DNA from: Pseudodesulfovibrio sp. zrk46
GTDB taxonomy: Bacteria; Desulfobacterota; Desulfovibrionia; Desulfovibrionales; Desulfovibrionaceae
Direction of reading: 5' to 3'
Assembly (NCBI RefSeq): GCF_012516435.1
Contig: NZ_CP051216.1
Location: 3,647,501 to 3,711,500, forward strand
DNA length: 64,000 nucleotides
Shown here: piece after piece, positions 30,316-62,571 of the stretch
Layout: every line of letters starts with the position of its first letter
Numbering within the stretch: the first letter of the stretch is position 1
The notes under the pieces: generated by a model
Databases searched by the model: none
Seen by the model: only the letters and a program-made list of their open reading frames with translations
What the model was told of the DNA's origin: nothing
Program-made: the position numbers and the translations under genes

Positions 30316-30435
30316 TCTGAGTGGTGGGTCACCAAGGAATCGAACCTTGAACCTCCGGATTAAGAGTCCGCTGCTCTGCCAATTGAGCTAGTGACCCACT
30401 CAGTGCTAAACGCTGTTGCGCTCAACGGAGTGAAT
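30316..30435 (-). repeat. 120-bp duplication, copy A (tRNA-Lys plus leader)
   Basis: This segment matches 30521-30640 at 118 of 120 positions; the mismatches are at 30414 and 30431. It contains the complete tRNA and about 38 bp of its upstream leader. Outside it the two copies differ, which marks the limits of a tandem duplication. Confidence 0.85.
30322..30397 (-). tRNA. tRNA-Lys (anticodon CUU), copy A
   Basis: The cloverleaf folds as acceptor GGGTCAC/GTGACCC, D-arm GCTC/GAGC, anticodon loop CTCTTAA with CTT at positions 34-36, T-arm CAAGG/CCTTG with loop TTCGATT, discriminator A and an encoded CCA, 76 nt in all. It reads codon AAG. The first anticodon-stem position pairs G27 with G43, a mismatch seen in both copies. 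It is the second of two tandem copies in transcription order. Confidence 0.95.
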
Positions 30436-30436
30436 T

Positions 30437-30463
30437 TCTATAAGTCGAGGTCTCATTTGTCAA
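30437..30463 (-). promoter_or_regulatory. Predicted promoter of tRNA-Lys copy A
   Basis: On the minus strand TTGACA (plus positions 30458-30463) and TATAGA (30437-30442) are 15 bp apart. The same two boxes with the same spacing precede copy B. The short spacer is unusual but shared. Confidence 0.55.
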
Positions 30464-30488
30464 CAAGAAATATTAAAAAAGTTGCAAT

Positions 30489-30513
30489 AAAAAAGCCCGG
30501 CTAAAAACCGGGC
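30489..30513 (-). terminator. Terminator of the upstream tRNA-Lys copy
   Basis: On the minus strand GCCCGG/CCGGGC closes a 7-nt loop and is followed by a T-tract. It sits between the two tRNA genes, so each copy appears to be an independent unit. Confidence 0.78.
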
Positions 30514-30520
30514 ATTGATC

Positions 30521-30640
30521 TCTGAGTGGTGGGTCACCAAGGAATCGAACCTTGAACCTCCGGATTAAGAGTCCGCTGCTCTGCCAATTGAGCTAGTGAC
30601 CCACTCAGTGCTAAACGCGGTTGCGCTCAACGGAGAGAAT
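30521..30640 (-). repeat. 120-bp duplication, copy B (tRNA-Lys plus leader)
   Basis: Second copy of the segment described at 30316-30435. It carries its own tRNA-Lys gene. The offset between the copies is 205 bp. Confidence 0.85.
30527..30602 (-). tRNA. tRNA-Lys (anticodon CUU), copy B
   Basis: Identical in sequence to copy A over all 76 nt, including the encoded CCA and the G27-G43 mismatch. It is the first copy in transcription order and has its own promoter boxes upstream and terminator downstream. Confidence 0.95.
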
Positions 30641-57945: not shown

Positions 57946-58125
57946 GACGCACTCCTGTCATTGATTTCGTTTGGAACTCGGTCTTATACGCACTGCCACT
58001 AGGCTTGGCAAGCAAAAAAATGACCATATCTCCATATTCTAGAAAAACTCCAGATATTGGGTATTTTCCGCCTCGGGTGATTCAGCACAAAAAGCAACGC
58101 TCTTCCCAGCCACTGCACCACCGGA

Positions 58126-58160
58126 GACGAAAAAAGGCGAACGCCTGAGCGTTCGCCTTT
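58126..58160 (-). terminator. Terminator of dsrC
   Basis: On the minus strand a 12-bp stem (AAAGGCGAACGC with GCGTTCGCCTTT) with a 4-nt loop is followed by TTTTT. It follows the dsrC stop by 22 bp. Confidence 0.88.
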
Positions 58161-58182
58161 AATATCTAAGCTCAGGTGCGAA

Positions 58183-58500
58183 CTAAACGCAACCGGTGGG
58201 CTTGGGCAGGCCAGCCATTTTACAGGCGCCTTTACCAGGACCGGAGGGGAACAGTTCGTAGATCTGCTTCAGCTTGAAGCCGGTGACCTTGGAGAGGATA
58301 CGGACCATCGGAGCGATGCCGTTCTTCTTGTAGTAGTCCTGCAGGAAGTCGATGACCTTCTGGTGATCTTCAGTGATTTCCTTGATACCTTCGGATTCCT
58401 TCACGTACTCAACCCAGTCCGGGGTCCAGTCTTCGAATTTCTGCAGGAAACCGTCTTCATCAACCTCAAAAGTAGCACCCTGGTATTCAACAACAGCCAT
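58183..58500 (-). CDS. dsrC: Sulfur-carrier protein DsrC
   Basis: Co-substrate of the dissimilatory sulfite reductase. DsrAB reduces sulfite to a trisulfide bridging the two C-terminal cysteines, and DsrMKJOP then reduces it. Both are present here: GACKMAGLPKPTGCV has the Cys pair ten residues apart, so this is a true DsrC rather than a TusE homologue. The protein is 105 residues. The ATG at 58500 has AGGAGG upstream. A leader of about 120 nt with a hairpin precedes it. It is the best marker for a sulfate reducer in this window. YcaO and methyltransferase genes lie upstream on the same strand. Confidence 0.97.
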   Translation of the reverse strand: MAVVEYQGATFEVDEDGFLQKFEDWTPDWVEYVKESEGIKEITEDHQKVIDFLQDYYKKNGIAPMVRILSKVTGFKLKQIYELFPSGPGKGACKMAGLPKPTGCV

Positions 58501-58569
58501 TGTATCCTCCTAAGTGGATAGTTTTTCATACTGAGCTCCGAGACAACCTCGAAACTACCATATCCTTGT

Positions 58570-58588
58570 AAACAGCGATCCGCTGTTT
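58570..58588 (-). promoter_or_regulatory. Hairpin in the dsrC leader
   Basis: Perfect 8-bp arms (AAACAGCG and CGCTGTTT) with a 3-nt loop lie about 70 bp before the dsrC start and roughly 32 nt after the predicted transcript start. It may stabilise the mRNA or act as an operator. No terminator T-run follows. Confidence 0.45.
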
Positions 58589-58626
58589 GATACCTTGTTT
58601 ATCCGGCTCAAAAACCGTGTGCGGAA

Positions 58627-58653
58627 ATTACATCTGCCCTAAGACTTTGTCAA
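58627..58653 (-). promoter_or_regulatory. Predicted promoter of dsrC
   Basis: On the minus strand TTGACA (plus 58648-58653) and TGTAAT (58627-58632) are 15 bp apart, the same short spacing as the tRNA promoters here. It predicts a leader of about 120 nt. Confidence 0.45.
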
Positions 58654-58709
58654 GGGGTCTTCGTACTTCTGCTCAAGAATTCTCAAGCTATCACTACGAC
58701 TATAACTGC

Positions 58710-60437
58710 CTAAGATTCCTGCAATTCATCATAATGAGCCTGAGCATAATCCAGTGAGGGGTCCAACTTCAAAGCCGAACCGAGATAATCCAAAGCCTCA
58801 GTAGTATTCCCCATAAACTTGTGACAGAGACCGAGGTTAGCCAGATCGTGCGCAGATCCACTATCAATCGTCAAGGCAGCCTCGAAATTCGTAGCAGCCT
58901 CTGCATAACGTTCGCCTTTAAAGTGTGCCACACCACGCAGATTGTAGAATTCCTTACAATCATCATCGTAACCGATAGCACGATCAAGCGGCTCCAGAGT
59001 GTCTTCCCACTGCTCAAGCTGTGACAGAGCATAGGCCTGATAAAATGCAGCCAGTCCACGCTCAGCATTCGCAGGCTGCAAAGGCTCGGCAATAGCGAAC
59101 TGATCTACAGCATACGCCACATCACCCATGCGCATGGCAAGAAGTCCCCGGAAGAACGGCATAAAATATCCGTTCGGGTAGATATCCTCGAGAACATCCA
59201 ACCCTTCCATGGCATCGCCAAACTCAGCATCTTCGGCCAGAATGCGACCGACAAAGACTCCAATACTACGATTGGGAGTCCTTTCACGGAAATCAAAACC
59301 AGGTACGAAGTTGTAGTTTGCCGTAACCATGAGATCGGGATGACGAGTATCCACCGAGTAAAGCGGGGTCCCCTGTTCGGCCAAGCCATTGGCCATGGAC
59401 ATCAATTCCTTATATATATTCTCATCCTCAACAGTAGGCAGAGAATCAAGGGAAACAGTCTCACCTTCCAGCAACCACTCAATGTCATTCAGATTTGTAA
59501 ATTTCGACAAACCGGACGCTTCGTACACACGGCTGGTTTCAAAATCTCCAGCCAACTGAGCAACCTCAGTAATGGCACGAATAGCTGCTTTGAGGGGCGA
59601 AGAAGAAGTGCCTGCGGTGAAAACGATTTCACTGAGTGCGGGAAAGGTTTTGGGATCCCAAGCGACAGCAGCCACGGTTGGCACAGGCTGCCCCATGGAG
59701 AAATCTTTGAGTACCAGCTTAACGCCATTGGACTCGAAGCACTTAACCAGACGAGTAAAAACCGGGTCGTCACACGAATTTAGATCAATGGTAGGCATTA
59801 CCTTACGGCTACGGTCGATGATGGCACAGACGTGACGCTCAACCAACTCACAACCGCCCTGCCCAATAGACTCTTCAAAAGTGTTACCAGCCGAAGAGCC
59901 ATTGAACTCGTTCAACTTCTTGAACCAGTCCAAGGGAACATACTCATGTTTGCCAGTAGCAATATTCAGAGCAGGATGAAAACGCCAGCGATTAAGATCC
60001 ATGAGACGAATAGCATCCTCGTCAGAGATATCCTCTTCTACTGAATGAGCAATAAGAGAAATATCCATGACCTCGCCCGGCCACTTTTCCTGAGCTTCAG
60101 ACCAAGTCAGCTCAGTGAAGTTCTCCTCATTGCTCCAAAAGGAAAAGTACGAGAAGCGTTCAACCAACTCCATAAGAGCAGAAGCCTCAGCCTGTTCAGG
60201 GGACGCGCCCTTTCCCATCTGCTTACGAGTGGGCATGACATCGCGAGCTTCGGGACCACAGGTAGACACGAATACAGGAATACCGAGCCTTCCTGTGTCT
60301 ACCCGGTCAGTTTCAGCCAGCACACCGGTGCATTTCTCGGCAAGAAGTCCTTTTACGCGTGCCACGGTTTCCACCGGGCTACACGCTTTATCCTGATCAG
60401 TAGTGTAAGCTTTTGTGCAATCCTGAAGTTTGATCAC
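58710..60437 (-). CDS. YcaO-domain protein fused to TPR repeats
   Basis: YcaO proteins use ATP to activate peptide amides, giving azolines or thioamides. Of the 575 residues, about 75-400 are YcaO: ALMELVERFSYF (88-99), FNGSSAGNTFEESIGQGG (178-194) and AAIRAITEVAQL (284-295) are the conserved ATP-site helices. Residues about 425-570 hold TPR repeats for protein binding. The C-terminus lacks the PxPxP ending of azoline-forming enzymes, so a thioamide or other activation is more likely (inference). It begins 3 bp after the methyltransferase stop. No TfuA gene is in the window. dsrC is 209 bp downstream. Confidence 0.85.
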   Translation of the reverse strand: MIKLQDCTKAYTTDQDKACSPVETVARVKGLLAEKCTGVLAETDRVDTGRLGIPVFVSTCGPEARDVMPTRKQMGKGASPEQAEASALMELVERFSYFSFWSNEENFTELTWSEAQEKWPGEVMDISLIAHSVEEDISDEDAIRLMDLNRWRFHPALNIATGKHEYVPLDWFKKLNEFNGSSAGNTFEESIGQGGCELVERHVCAIIDRSRKVMPTIDLNSCDDPVFTRLVKCFESNGVKLVLKDFSMGQPVPTVAAVAWDPKTFPALSEIVFTAGTSSSPLKAAIRAITEVAQLAGDFETSRVYEASGLSKFTNLNDIEWLLEGETVSLDSLPTVEDENIYKELMSMANGLAEQGTPLYSVDTRHPDLMVTANYNFVPGFDFRERTPNRSIGVFVGRILAEDAEFGDAMEGLDVLEDIYPNGYFMPFFRGLLAMRMGDVAYAVDQFAIAEPLQPANAERGLAAFYQAYALSQLEQWEDTLEPLDRAIGYDDDCKEFYNLRGVAHFKGERYAEAATNFEAALTIDSGSAHDLANLGLCHKFMGNTTEALDYLGSALKLDPSLDYAQAHYDELQES

Positions 60438-60439
60438 AG

Positions 60440-61156
60440 CTATTTCCTCTTGAAACGGAACAGGTTCACGGGCTTGTCTACGCCAGACTCCTGATCCTTA
60501 AAGGTTGCAGAGGATTTCGCGATATGGAACCGCTCTCCGCTCTGCATGAAAAAGTTCTTTGCGGCACGCTTGAGGTCGAGAGAGAAAAAGACCTCTCCAT
60601 CCTCGGATTCGGTCAGGCAGCCGTCCACAAAAGCAGAAAGCAGATCGAACTGCTTCTCATCATAAAGGAATTCGGTACCTACGAGACAATCGAAACGCTC
60701 GGCAAGACCTTCCTTGAAATCCGTTTTCTTGGCCGTAATGTTATCTCCCAAATCATTCTTGAGAGCATTGATGCGGGCAAAGAGCAACGCATCCGCATCA
60801 ACGTCAGTTACAGTGACATCGTACCCACGACGCGCCAAGACGAGAGAAGTGATTGCAGAACCACCACCAATTTCCAACACTTTAGCCCCCTCTTTCAGAG
60901 GGAAATTAGCCAGGGAATGTCCCATTACCAGACTGCCAGGCCAGACCTTGGCCCAGAGAGGCAAGGAGACCGTTTTGCCGGAACGGGTCTTATCCATGAG
61001 TTTGTCGATATATTTCTGCATGTGCTTGATCTGCAACACATACAAGGTACCTTCGCCCACGGACACATCCTGAAACTCGACTTCACCGAACTTCTGCACG
61101 GCGAGATCGATAAGCTTGTCCATGGGCTGTTCGAGATCGTAGTCTTTCACAGCCAC
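60440..61156 (-). CDS. SAM-dependent methyltransferase, METTL20/21-like
   Basis: Seven-strand methyltransferase. The 238-residue protein has LPLWAKVWPGSLVMGHSLA at about 65-83, a motif like the WA..WP.G.. stretch of protein-lysine methyltransferases of the METTL20/21 group. The SAM loop is VLEIGGGSAIT (about 93-103) with acidic VTDVD (116-120). Such enzymes modify proteins, so a protein target is a fair guess; small molecules cannot be excluded. It is coupled to the YcaO gene (2-bp gap) and follows the Tim44-like gene by 26 bp. The ATG at 61156 has GGAGGA upstream. Confidence 0.78.
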   Translation of the reverse strand: MAVKDYDLEQPMDKLIDLAVQKFGEVEFQDVSVGEGTLYVLQIKHMQKYIDKLMDKTRSGKTVSLPLWAKVWPGSLVMGHSLANFPLKEGAKVLEIGGGSAITSLVLARRGYDVTVTDVDADALLFARINALKNDLGDNITAKKTDFKEGLAERFDCLVGTEFLYDEKQFDLLSAFVDGCLTESEDGEVFFSLDLKRAAKNFFMQSGERFHIAKSSATFKDQESGVDKPVNLFRFKRK

Positions 61157-61182
61157 GTCATCCTCCGATATTTATTGGGGAT

Positions 61183-61944
61183 CTATTGATCTACCTTATT
61201 GATTTTTTCCAAAGTCCACAGGCCGTTCTCGACATTGTCGTCTCGGGAGAACTCCCAAACGGCCCTGACATGCATGGGCTGAGCGCCCTGCGCGGTCCTA
61301 CGAAGCTGAGCATCGTAAAATACGGTGGCAAGGGTTCTGCCTCCCTCGCTCTTCATTTCCATGAGACGGGCGGTCAGCAGCATGATTTCAGTGGGCCCCA
61401 TATCCGAAGTACGCTGGGCATCTGCAAGAGCGTCACTGTATACGGAATCAGAAAGAAACACTTTCAGGTCATCAAAATCACGACTATCGCGGGCCTGCTG
61501 AAAACGAGAAAAGAACAACTTTGCCCCTTCCAAAAATTCAGCTTCGTCAAATTGTCCATCACTGTTCACAGGTGCACCCTGGACGGAAGAGGACTCATTC
61601 TTGTCAGAACTAAGATGGCCCCACATCTGACGAGCCGCTTCATGCCGATCCATTGGACGGATCACACGCCCACCCTGATCCTGATCGTCATTTTTACGAT
61701 CCCACTTACCTAGACGAGTGTTGTCATCATCCTTATCCATACGGCGACGGAAAGTGCGTACGAGAAAATAGGCAATGAGCCCAAGAAAGAGGATGTTGAG
61801 TACACTGCCACCTGCGGAAGGCATCTGCTGCTCGGCAAAGGCGGGTGTGGCCCACAAAAGTAGGCAAAAAAAGGACGGAATTACCATACCAAAACGGCTG
61901 GAACCTAGGCAACGAATGAATATCGATATACTGTGTCGTGTCAT
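61183..61944 (-). CDS. Tim44-like domain protein, membrane-anchored
   Basis: The N-terminus has a signal-like stretch (VIPSFFCLLLWATPAFA) and a second membrane helix (LNILFLGLIAYFLVRTF). After a charged linker (about 68-125), residues 125-253 form a Tim44-like fold, used to bind membranes or proteins. An internal Met at residue 20 is another possible start. The family's bacterial role is not settled. It is the first gene of a likely operon with the methyltransferase and YcaO genes. 253 residues. Confidence 0.72.
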   Translation of the reverse strand: MTRHSISIFIRCLGSSRFGMVIPSFFCLLLWATPAFAEQQMPSAGGSVLNILFLGLIAYFLVRTFRRRMDKDDDNTRLGKWDRKNDDQDQGGRVIRPMDRHEAARQMWGHLSSDKNESSSVQGAPVNSDGQFDEAEFLEGAKLFFSRFQQARDSRDFDDLKVFLSDSVYSDALADAQRTSDMGPTEIMLLTARLMEMKSEGGRTLATVFYDAQLRRTAQGAQPMHVRAVWEFSRDDNVENGLWTLEKINKVDQ

Positions 61945-61978
61945 CTTGTTGAGTAAGGCATCCCTTCAAAAAAGGCTG

Positions 61979-62377
61979 CTAGTCAATGAGCGCGAGATCG
62001 CGCAGGATGGCGTAAAGACTCTCCACTTCAATTGGCTTTGGCAAATAAGCTGCCGCACCGCCTTTATAATACGCCTTAACCACGGTCTTAGGGTCGTTGA
62101 GGGCCGTGACCATAATCACTTTTGCCTCCTCGGAAGCGGAAATGCCCACATCATGTTCTATAGCGCGGATTTCTTTGAGCGCCTGATGCCCATCTTTGTT
62201 GGGCATCATGATATCCATGCACAACAAATCATATGGGCGCCCTTCATCCAAAGCTTGCCGAAAACTCTGCACGCACTCCACCCCGTCGTTGGCGGTATCG
62301 CACTCACCAAAATCCGACAGAAGTGCCGTCAAAAGCTTCCGGCTGGTAAATTCATCTTCAACAATCAAAATTCGCAT
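61979..62377 (-). CDS. Single-domain response regulator
   Basis: Receiver-only protein, 132 residues. The acidic pair is in ILIVEDEFTSRK, the phospho-acceptor Asp in CMDIMMPNKDG, and Thr/Lys in MVTAL and YLPKPIE. It has no output domain, so it would act by protein contact. It lies 34 bp upstream of the Tim44-like gene on the same strand and may be part of that transcript. No histidine kinase is nearby in the window. Confidence 0.9.
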   Translation of the reverse strand: MRILIVEDEFTSRKLLTALLSDFGECDTANDGVECVQSFRQALDEGRPYDLLCMDIMMPNKDGHQALKEIRAIEHDVGISASEEAKVIMVTALNDPKTVVKAYYKGGAAAYLPKPIEVESLYAILRDLALID

Positions 62378-62571
62378 TTATCCTCCCCGAGACCAACCGA
62401 ATGGCTACACCATCCATCTCGGAAACACAACGCAGACAATAAACGACAACCCATACGAGCACAAGGGCATGATAATTCCTGCACAACTGAAAGAGCTAAA
62501 CCTTGCAAGCTACCGAATTGCAACGTAGTAAGGGACCTCCAGCATTCGCTGAAAACCTGCTTGGAGAAAAC

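Follow-up and report, generated by a model that had tools for sequence, protein, structure and literature searches.

A YcaO-TPR gene associated with dsrC in sulfate reducers and a possible thioamide in the DsrC arm

The window analyzed here, the whole stretch of 64,000 nucleotides from Pseudodesulfovibrio sp. zrk46 (genome of 4.08 Mb in a single contig), encodes on its minus strand a methyltransferase (MT), a YcaO domain fused to tetratricopeptide repeats (YcaO-TPR), and DsrC, the protein on which the final step of sulfate respiration carries its sulfur and electrons. This type of respiration matters globally to the cycling of carbon and sulfur. Many sulfate reducers keep YcaO beside dsrC, often with the methyltransferase, and a hidden chemical modification of the sulfate-respiration pathway looks likely. 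An earlier reading of this locus (hereafter the original prediction) had proposed that the YcaO protein and the MT modify a folded protein, with DsrC an obvious candidate, an interpretation that our analysis supports overall. We consider it an evenly balanced proposition that the MT trimethylates DsrC lysines and that YcaO-TPR thioamidates the DsrC arm, as E. coli YcaO does uL16. The specific form that we advance, tentatively and at a little under an even chance, is that a dsr-associated YcaO-TPR uses respiratory sulfide to make a thioglycine, most likely at residue 89, at the hinge of the DsrC arm, accompanied in Desulfovibrionales by METTL21-like lysine trimethylation.

The YcaO-TPR gene and its association with dsr genes

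The four predicted minus-strand genes are all present, namely dsrC, the proposed substrate (58183..58500, 105 aa, PF04358 1.8e-36), the YcaO-TPR fusion, a putative sulfide-dependent thioamide synthase (58710..60437, 575 aa), the MT, a candidate DsrC lysine trimethyltransferase (60440..61156, 238 aa), and a Tim44-like protein (61183..61944), with gaps of 209 bp between dsrC and YcaO, 2 bp between YcaO and MT, and 26 bp between MT and the Tim44-like gene. The fusion passes the curated score of PF02624 (187.4 bits vs 25.7 needed; 5.5e-55, residues 74-381) and continues into a C-terminal TPR domain at residues 391-575 (58713..59267), seen in the Pfam scan, the model, and the fold comparison. It lacks PxPxP, as predicted; its ATP/Mg motif Sx(6-7)Ex3Qx3ExxER, read in the sequence, is present and complete at residues 181-201 (SSAGNTFEESIGQGGCELVER, 59835..59897), and G184, N185, E189, Q193, E197, E200, and R201 are invariant in 21/21 aligned YcaO sequences across the phylum. 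The whole protein has one match in the genome, with two weaker matches to its C-terminal part only (residues 473-572 and 377-554).

The YcaO-TPR model (pLDDT 93) has as its best fold match the methanogen YcaO 6peu (Z 38.5, root-mean-square deviation 2.8, 340 aligned residues), and its best NCBIfam match is the McrA-glycine thioamidation model TIGR03266 (111.7 bits, below the 365 cut-off). The methanogen enzymes (6peu, 6ci7) modify a glycine of a core anaerobic-energy protein, a parallel that we propose for DsrC. They differ from the window family in that the TIGR03266 score stays below its cut-off, the alignment ends at residue 390, before the TPRs, TfuA is absent from the window family, and the substrate of the window family would be DsrC. 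The fold match to E. coli YcaO (EcYcaO) involves the catalytic half only (Z 30.8; 4q84, 4q85, and 4q86 align over residues 10-404), and the EcYcaO model NF040716 yields 54.1 bits, far under its cut-off of 700. The two proteins share a catalytic YcaO domain and the presence of a C-terminal TPR domain, an acidic pI (4.4 for EcYcaO, 4.5 for the window protein, and 4.3 for its TPR half), the lack of TfuA and of a precursor peptide, and, as proposed for the window YcaO, a folded-protein substrate. They differ in the tie of the window family to dsr genes and in the NF040716 score (54 of 700 bits); the structural alignment stops at residue 404 whereas the TPRs of the window YcaO lie at 391-575, so that the TPR halves may or may not correspond in origin and placement.

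TfuA is the usual sulfur-delivery partner of thioamide-forming YcaOs. The predicted lack of a TfuA gene holds for the window genome and 79 further YcaO-positive genomes (PF07812, 0/80 at 1e-5), and among 14 control genomes the search was positive only in Methanosarcina acetivorans. The original prediction had also called for a folded protein as the substrate, and this has a precedent in the TPR-bearing E. coli YcaO, which thioamidates folded uL16 through recognition of tertiary structure (Rice et al. 2026, PMC13063428).

Relatives of YcaO-TPR were gathered with an alignment as the query (a single-sequence genome scan matched none), and the best 80 of 559 confirmed loci were retained; since these are titled Desulfovibrionales or broadly named metagenome-assembled genomes, Archaeoglobi, Firmicutes, and Nitrospirota fall outside the sample. 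The closest titled relatives among these 80 are from Pseudodesulfovibrio. Neighboring dsrC and MT genes were called by tblastn, with distances measured to match ends, and the general neighbor scan covered open reading frames (ORFs) of at least 70 aa only. YcaO-TPR is present in 180/199 genomes drawn from the order Desulfovibrionales. Six families of the order contributed 40 loci, of which 35 have the MT 4-389 bp upstream of YcaO and 32 have dsrC 180-650 bp downstream of it in the same orientation, so that the expected co-location of these genes is conserved for the MT and dsrC, while the Tim44-like gene is outside the conserved set. Of the 80 titled loci, 70 extend 1.1 kb or more beyond YcaO on the downstream side, and dsrC was linked in 37 of these. 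Linkage was complete in the eligible loci of Pseudodesulfovibrio (3/3), Solidesulfovibrio (4/4), Humidesulfovibrio (2/2), Desulfonatronum (2/2), Desulfonatronospira (3/3), and Desulfonatronovibrio (1/1), and was not seen in Nitratidesulfovibrio (0/2) or Desulfomicrobium (0/2). A premature stop in six Desulfomicrobium-type YcaO matches was considered and rejected, the reported stops being the natural terminal ones.

Outside the order, dsrC lies within 1.1 kb of YcaO on the same strand in 8/40 loci, a lower bound because some contigs end close to YcaO. It is upstream of YcaO in two of these (L112, L119) and downstream in the others, at 88-259 bp in L123, L125, L126, L129, and L132 and at 1066 bp, with another ORF between, in L139; a DsrC-like paralogue in L117 (39% identity, opposite strand, 3 kb away) was excluded from the count. 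The adjacency is not limited to the order and recurs in other families of the phylum with dsrC on either side, and the gene content around YcaO in these 40 loci is unlike that in the order. HcyBio, Thi4, and the tRNA thiolase MnmA each insert sulfur into a product. Family f44 (2/2 loci, L122 and L140) has the order HcyBio - NIL ferredoxin - YcaO-TPR - Thi4, and in f34/f70 a NIL ferredoxin follows YcaO in 3/4 loci (L121, L131, and L133; not L130), and in L131 and L133 MnmA comes after the ferredoxin. Scans identified the genes of L122 and the MnmA of L131, and cluster membership the other f44, f34, and f70 neighbors; the f44 cluster in L122 spans L122:7303-11377. Because of these sulfur-incorporating neighbors, the absence of TfuA, and the 6peu fold match, we favor sulfur chemistry for YcaO.

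The suggested co-occurrence with the dissimilatory sulfite reductase is borne out in a survey of 395 genomes of the phylum (YcaO match below 1e-40): dsrA was found in 145/149 genomes with a YcaO match vs 45/246 without. Three genomes were then re-classed, G236 and G331 as YcaO-less (weak, probably paralogous matches at 1.7e-52 and 3.8e-54) and G485 as YcaO-positive (a contig-edge fragment matching residues 2-179), which gives dsrA in 144/148 YcaO-positive vs 46/247 YcaO-less genomes (144, 4, 46, and 201). DsrD was tried as the true correlate of YcaO and rejected: it is present in 33/35 listed YcaO-positive genomes and in 30/45 YcaO-less dsrA-positive genomes, so that YcaO is not merely a marker of DsrD. 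Matches to aprA above the family cut-off were found in 14/14 YcaO-positive dsrA-positive vs 16/45 YcaO-less dsrA-positive genomes of the phylum, and in 8/19 YcaO-less genomes of the order; G236 is among both the 35 and the 14 YcaO-positive genomes of these counts. One genome rated 100% complete (G053) has YcaO-TPR and aprA and no dsrA match, reflecting an assembly gap or a real loss.

Gly89 and the published spectra of DsrC

The C-terminal arm of DsrC reads SGPG(89)KGAC(93)KM(95)AGLPKPTGC(104)V, with the Gly89 codon at 58234..58236 on the minus strand. Outside the order this position tracks YcaO, being Gly in 36/36 YcaO-positive rows (34 genomes, two entered twice) and Ala in 40/43 YcaO-less rows. 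When two YcaO-less f44 genomes were compared at five clade-diagnostic DsrC positions, position 89 was the sole one changed in both, with position 33 Ile for Val in one of them; two YcaO-positive f44 sisters keep Gly89. The YcaO-less pair shows changes at two more conserved positions as well (59 and 66). The association between Gly89 and YcaO may be regarded as a lead, not a proof. At 1e-25 there was no DsrC match in G289, G368, G425, G381, or G203; DsrC rows were left out for G169, G180, and G187 (YcaO-less, no dsrA) and for G323 and G502 (YcaO-positive). The partial dsrC of L057 fell under the DsrC cut-off, and that of L037, with a truncated arm, was counted in the residue table and kept off the tree.

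Published spectra of Desulfovibrio vulgaris DsrC include peptides with trimethyl-lysine (Chhabra 2011, PMC3125180). One of them, LK*EVYELFPSGPGK, was reported as 'Trimethylation+Oxidation' and was seen with three different baits (PMC3125180); its trimethylated lysine is equivalent to Lys78 of the window DsrC (codon 58267..58269, minus strand). The HQK* peptide, ESEGISDISPDHQK*IIDFLQDYYK, carries +42 Da (PMC3125180) on the equivalent of Lys48 (codon 58357..58359, minus strand). The LK* peptide, LKEVYELFPSGPGK, is tabulated only as 'trimethylation+oxidation', in a table that omits unmodified peptides (PMC3125180). It holds no Met, Trp, or Cys, and its last five residues, S86-G87-P88-G89-K90, form the base of the arm. 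The unexplained mass that the original prediction would look for on DsrC is thus already in print for D. vulgaris, as trimethyl-lysine and as a '+16' on an arm-base peptide free of Met, Trp, and Cys (PMC3125180).

According to the authors, their MS1 measurements were not accurate enough to tell trimethyl and acetyl groups apart (PMC3125180). By our arithmetic these differ by 0.036 Da, and an added oxygen differs from an exchange of oxygen for sulfur by 0.018 Da, or 11 ppm, so that the +16 is indistinguishable from an O-to-S exchange at the reported mass accuracy; the uL16 study likewise told thioamide from oxygen by ~11 ppm (PMC13063428). We infer that the +16 on the DsrC peptide could be sulfur, with hydroxylation of Pro, Tyr, or Lys another possible source. 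Trimethyl-lysine was published on DsrC, ApsA, and ApsB, in a section that names no methyltransferase (PMC3125180).

The window YcaO-TPR is taken as an orthologue of D. vulgaris DVU2210, which is described as a YcaO-TPR protein (Zane et al. 2020, PMC7774982). Three orthologues of the window gene, of Nitratidesulfovibrio type, have an ATP motif one residue away from that of DVU2210. Unlike the window YcaO, the relatives of DVU2210 lack dsrC alongside. In a Δsat strain, deletion of DVU2210 or the S195R substitution in its ATP motif leads to molybdate resistance (PMC7774982); the main text of that paper contains no occurrence of DsrC, methyltransferase, or thioamide. When D. vulgaris was evolved in syntrophy, dsrC ranked near the top for parallel mutation and its changes were of a function-modulating kind; DVU2210, too, was a high-G-score gene (PMC8319347). 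YcaO does not occur in the main text of the D. vulgaris paper on randomly barcoded transposon sequencing (RB-TnSeq), nor do methyltransferase, TPR, or tetratricopeptide in that of the G20 fitness paper, and no mention of YcaO together with DsrC was found in the open-access literature searched. While the YcaO enzyme class and YcaO action on a folded protein are already known, the dsr-associated YcaO family, its tie to DsrC, and the rereading of the old spectra appear new within that literature.

A proposed modification of the DsrC arm and its competitors

That the MT and YcaO-TPR make the modifications of DsrC, at which exact residue, and in what role, we infer from these observations as follows. 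The MT would trimethylate Lys78 and possibly Lys48 of DsrC, and the acidic TPR half of YcaO (pI 4.3, vs 9.9 for the last 40 residues of DsrC) would bind folded DsrC; since the TPR half would recognize the folded substrate, no precursor peptide, leader, or TfuA would be needed. YcaO would use ATP to phosphorylate a backbone amide in the arm base, most likely that of Gly89 in SGPGK (Gly87 or a neighbor is possible). Free sulfide, which a sulfate reducer has in abundance, would then displace the phosphate, and the exchange of O for S would yield a thioamide with a shift of +16 Da. The arm would be stiffened four residues ahead of its first redox cysteine, Cys93, and the modification may affect arm conformation and reactivity in this region, tuning DsrC in a non-essential way. 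Because it would tune rather than enable DsrC, a mild deletion phenotype and repeated losses would follow, and the thioglycine would have been overlooked because its +16 was taken for oxidation. Nothing points to DsrAB, the other substrate named in the original prediction, in an analysis in which DsrA and DsrB were not compared.

If this is true, DsrC, a protein of a core energy pathway, would be added to the known substrates of YcaO, and the backbone thioamide in its redox arm would be a bacterial counterpart, in another ancient anaerobic pathway, of the methyl-coenzyme M reductase thioamide. Recombinant DsrC from E. coli may then lack the native chemistry, DVU2210 (molybdate sensitivity, selection in syntrophy) would gain a function, and the likely enzyme would be named for the DsrC trimethyl-lysine reported in 2011.

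A number of observations weigh against the proposal that YcaO-TPR and the MT act on DsrC. With respect to Gly89, the residue is kept in three YcaO-less rows outside the order and in 14/14 DsrC rows from YcaO-less members of the order. It changes only twice on the DsrC tree, which was built without the arm columns, and for this reason the test of independent pairs was non-significant (of seven pairs, two differed in the same way and five showed no difference, p 0.5). YcaO is missing from 46 dsrA-positive genomes of the phylum, and 15/19 YcaO-less genomes of the order keep dsrA. The MT had no match in 31/180 YcaO-positive genomes of the order at 1e-15, and it was found in 0/40 loci outside the order with the window MT as the query, although Lys78 is Lys in 36/36 YcaO-positive rows there. 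DsrC is acidic as a whole (pI 5.0) and basic only in its last 40 residues. Linkage to dsrC was found in only 8/30 titled Desulfovibrio loci, and the relatives of D. vulgaris, in both Nitratidesulfovibrio loci, keep MT-YcaO without dsrC adjoining. Since DksA-like and NFACT-like genes, read from the sequence by eye, are likewise retained upstream at many loci within the order, conserved synteny explains part of the order-level linkage. The +16 was published as 'oxidation', its position was not given, and the ProtScores were modest at 1.5-1.7 (PMC3125180). Finally, the sulfate growth rate of ΔDVU2210 is similar to that of wild type, and all mutants respire sulfite (PMC7774982).

In the strongest rivals, the target of YcaO is uL16 or another protein and its distribution follows sulfide, or DsrC serves YcaO as sulfur donor. 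The former, which we judge unlikely, holds that YcaO-TPR thioamidates uL16 or a general protein, tracks dsrA through a need for high sulfide, and sits near dsrC through old synteny. Parts of the dsrC neighborhood are indeed conserved in the order, deletion of DVU2210 is mild (PMC7774982), and EcYcaO, also TPR-bearing and acidic with a pI similar to that of the window YcaO, thioamidates uL16 without TfuA (PMC13063428). However, synteny does not fit well with dsrC occurring both upstream and downstream of YcaO in differing gene settings, and the window protein scores only 54 of 700 bits with the EcYcaO NCBIfam model. Moreover, uL16 is universal, so that the tie to DsrC type and the mass shifts on DsrC would be left unexplained.

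TusE feeds MnmA in E. coli, and DsrC is in the TusE/DsrC sulfur-relay family. A DsrC persulfide or trisulfide might similarly feed YcaO, which would thioamidate another protein, with DsrC as donor or partner, an arrangement that seems to us quite unlikely. It would suit the position of YcaO elsewhere beside sulfur-incorporating enzymes, MnmA included, and would meet the need for some sulfur source in the absence of TfuA. Yet sulfide is plentiful and sufficed for EcYcaO in vitro, at a concentration that the authors call nonphysiological (PMC13063428), and the +16 on a Cys-free DsrC peptide and the pattern of Gly89 would remain unexplained.

Less probable again is that YcaO acts on DsrC and forms a product other than a thioamide (an azoline, an amidine, or another ATP-driven change), with the +16 due to oxidation or hydroxy-trimethyllysine. 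In favor of this reading, YcaO enzymes have several outcomes and the original paper called the +16 oxidation (PMC3125180). On the other side, a Ser, Thr, or Cys changed by cyclodehydration would show a shift of -18, and Table 1 of the original paper lists no such mass (PMC3125180); in addition, the operon partners in other families insert sulfur, and the closest fold is that of a thioamide-forming methanogen YcaO. Zane and colleagues proposed a futile cycle with YcaO adenylating or phosphorylating molybdate or a similar oxyanion; this reading, under which the dsrC linkage is incidental, appears highly improbable. In its favor, Δsat ΔDVU2210 is molybdate-resistant, and S195R in the ATP motif acts alike (PMC7774982). 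Against it, a function harmful to the cell cannot account for phylum-wide conservation, the same paper allows that the phenotype may stem from a different product of DVU2210, and DVU2210 conferred no molybdate sensitivity in E. coli (PMC7774982).

The methyltransferase and other features

The MT passes the curated score of Methyltransf_16 (PF10294; 36.3 bits vs 21, 5.9e-9). The WA..WPG segment noted in the original prediction was confirmed as WAKVWPG, and WxxxWP and E-x-x-Y segments, which we take to be motifs of the METTL21 group, were found. The model (pLDDT 92.7) ranks human METTL21B, C, and A on top (Z 23.0-22.4), followed by METTL21D (21.5), the p97 trimethylating enzyme according to PDB titles. 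The MT thus resembles METTL21 enzymes in Pfam family, segments, and fold Z, and differs in being bacterial and only 18-23% identical to the METTL21 structures. At 1e-15 it was found in 149/199 genomes of the order, comprising 149/180 YcaO-positive and 0/19 YcaO-less genomes (Fisher 1.9e-13, a value that is not a probability of independent events because the genomes are related). Lys48 was examined as a correlate of the MT and set aside as too weak, being Lys in 34/34 MT-positive rows, 5/7 MT-less YcaO-positive rows, and 14/14 rows lacking both in the order.

The Tim44-like protein, which has a hydrophobic N-terminal stretch (PF04280 3.5e-9), was rejected as a member of the module: it is upstream in 8/40 loci of the order, in close relatives only, and in 0/40 outside, and any Tim44 match was found in 17/80 titled loci. 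It looks incidental and is probably not part of the module.

The original prediction gave dsrC its own promoter, which a consensus scan of 58000-62500 does not support, with 0 sigma-70-like sites vs a mean of 4.1 in shuffles. The same type of scan placed a terminator-like hairpin 3' of dsrC (58133..58160, minus strand) and detected no such site in the gap that separates dsrC from YcaO. Since no promoter-like or terminator-like site precedes dsrC and a hairpin follows it, co-transcription of YcaO and dsrC is possible, these sites being consensus matches only.

Among YcaO-less dsrA-positive lineages, f7, f26, f45, and f79 (L223-L233) encode TPR proteins of 572-647 aa that are similar to YcaO-TPR in their C-terminal TPRs (blastp 1e-14 to 1e-21). 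The one at L223:4686-6470 is followed after 1.1 kb by dsrA and, beyond it, by dsrD and dsrC. Two f45 dsrA-positive genomes without YcaO-TPR carry a stand-alone YcaO of 437-455 aa that lacks TPRs (L234:4395-5708, and L235), and G129, also without YcaO-TPR, has YcaO-like matches at three places (L237, L238), two of which are near each other, and may hold a RiPP cluster. Elsewhere in the window, a tandem pair of tRNA-Lys(CTT) genes lies at 30322-30602.

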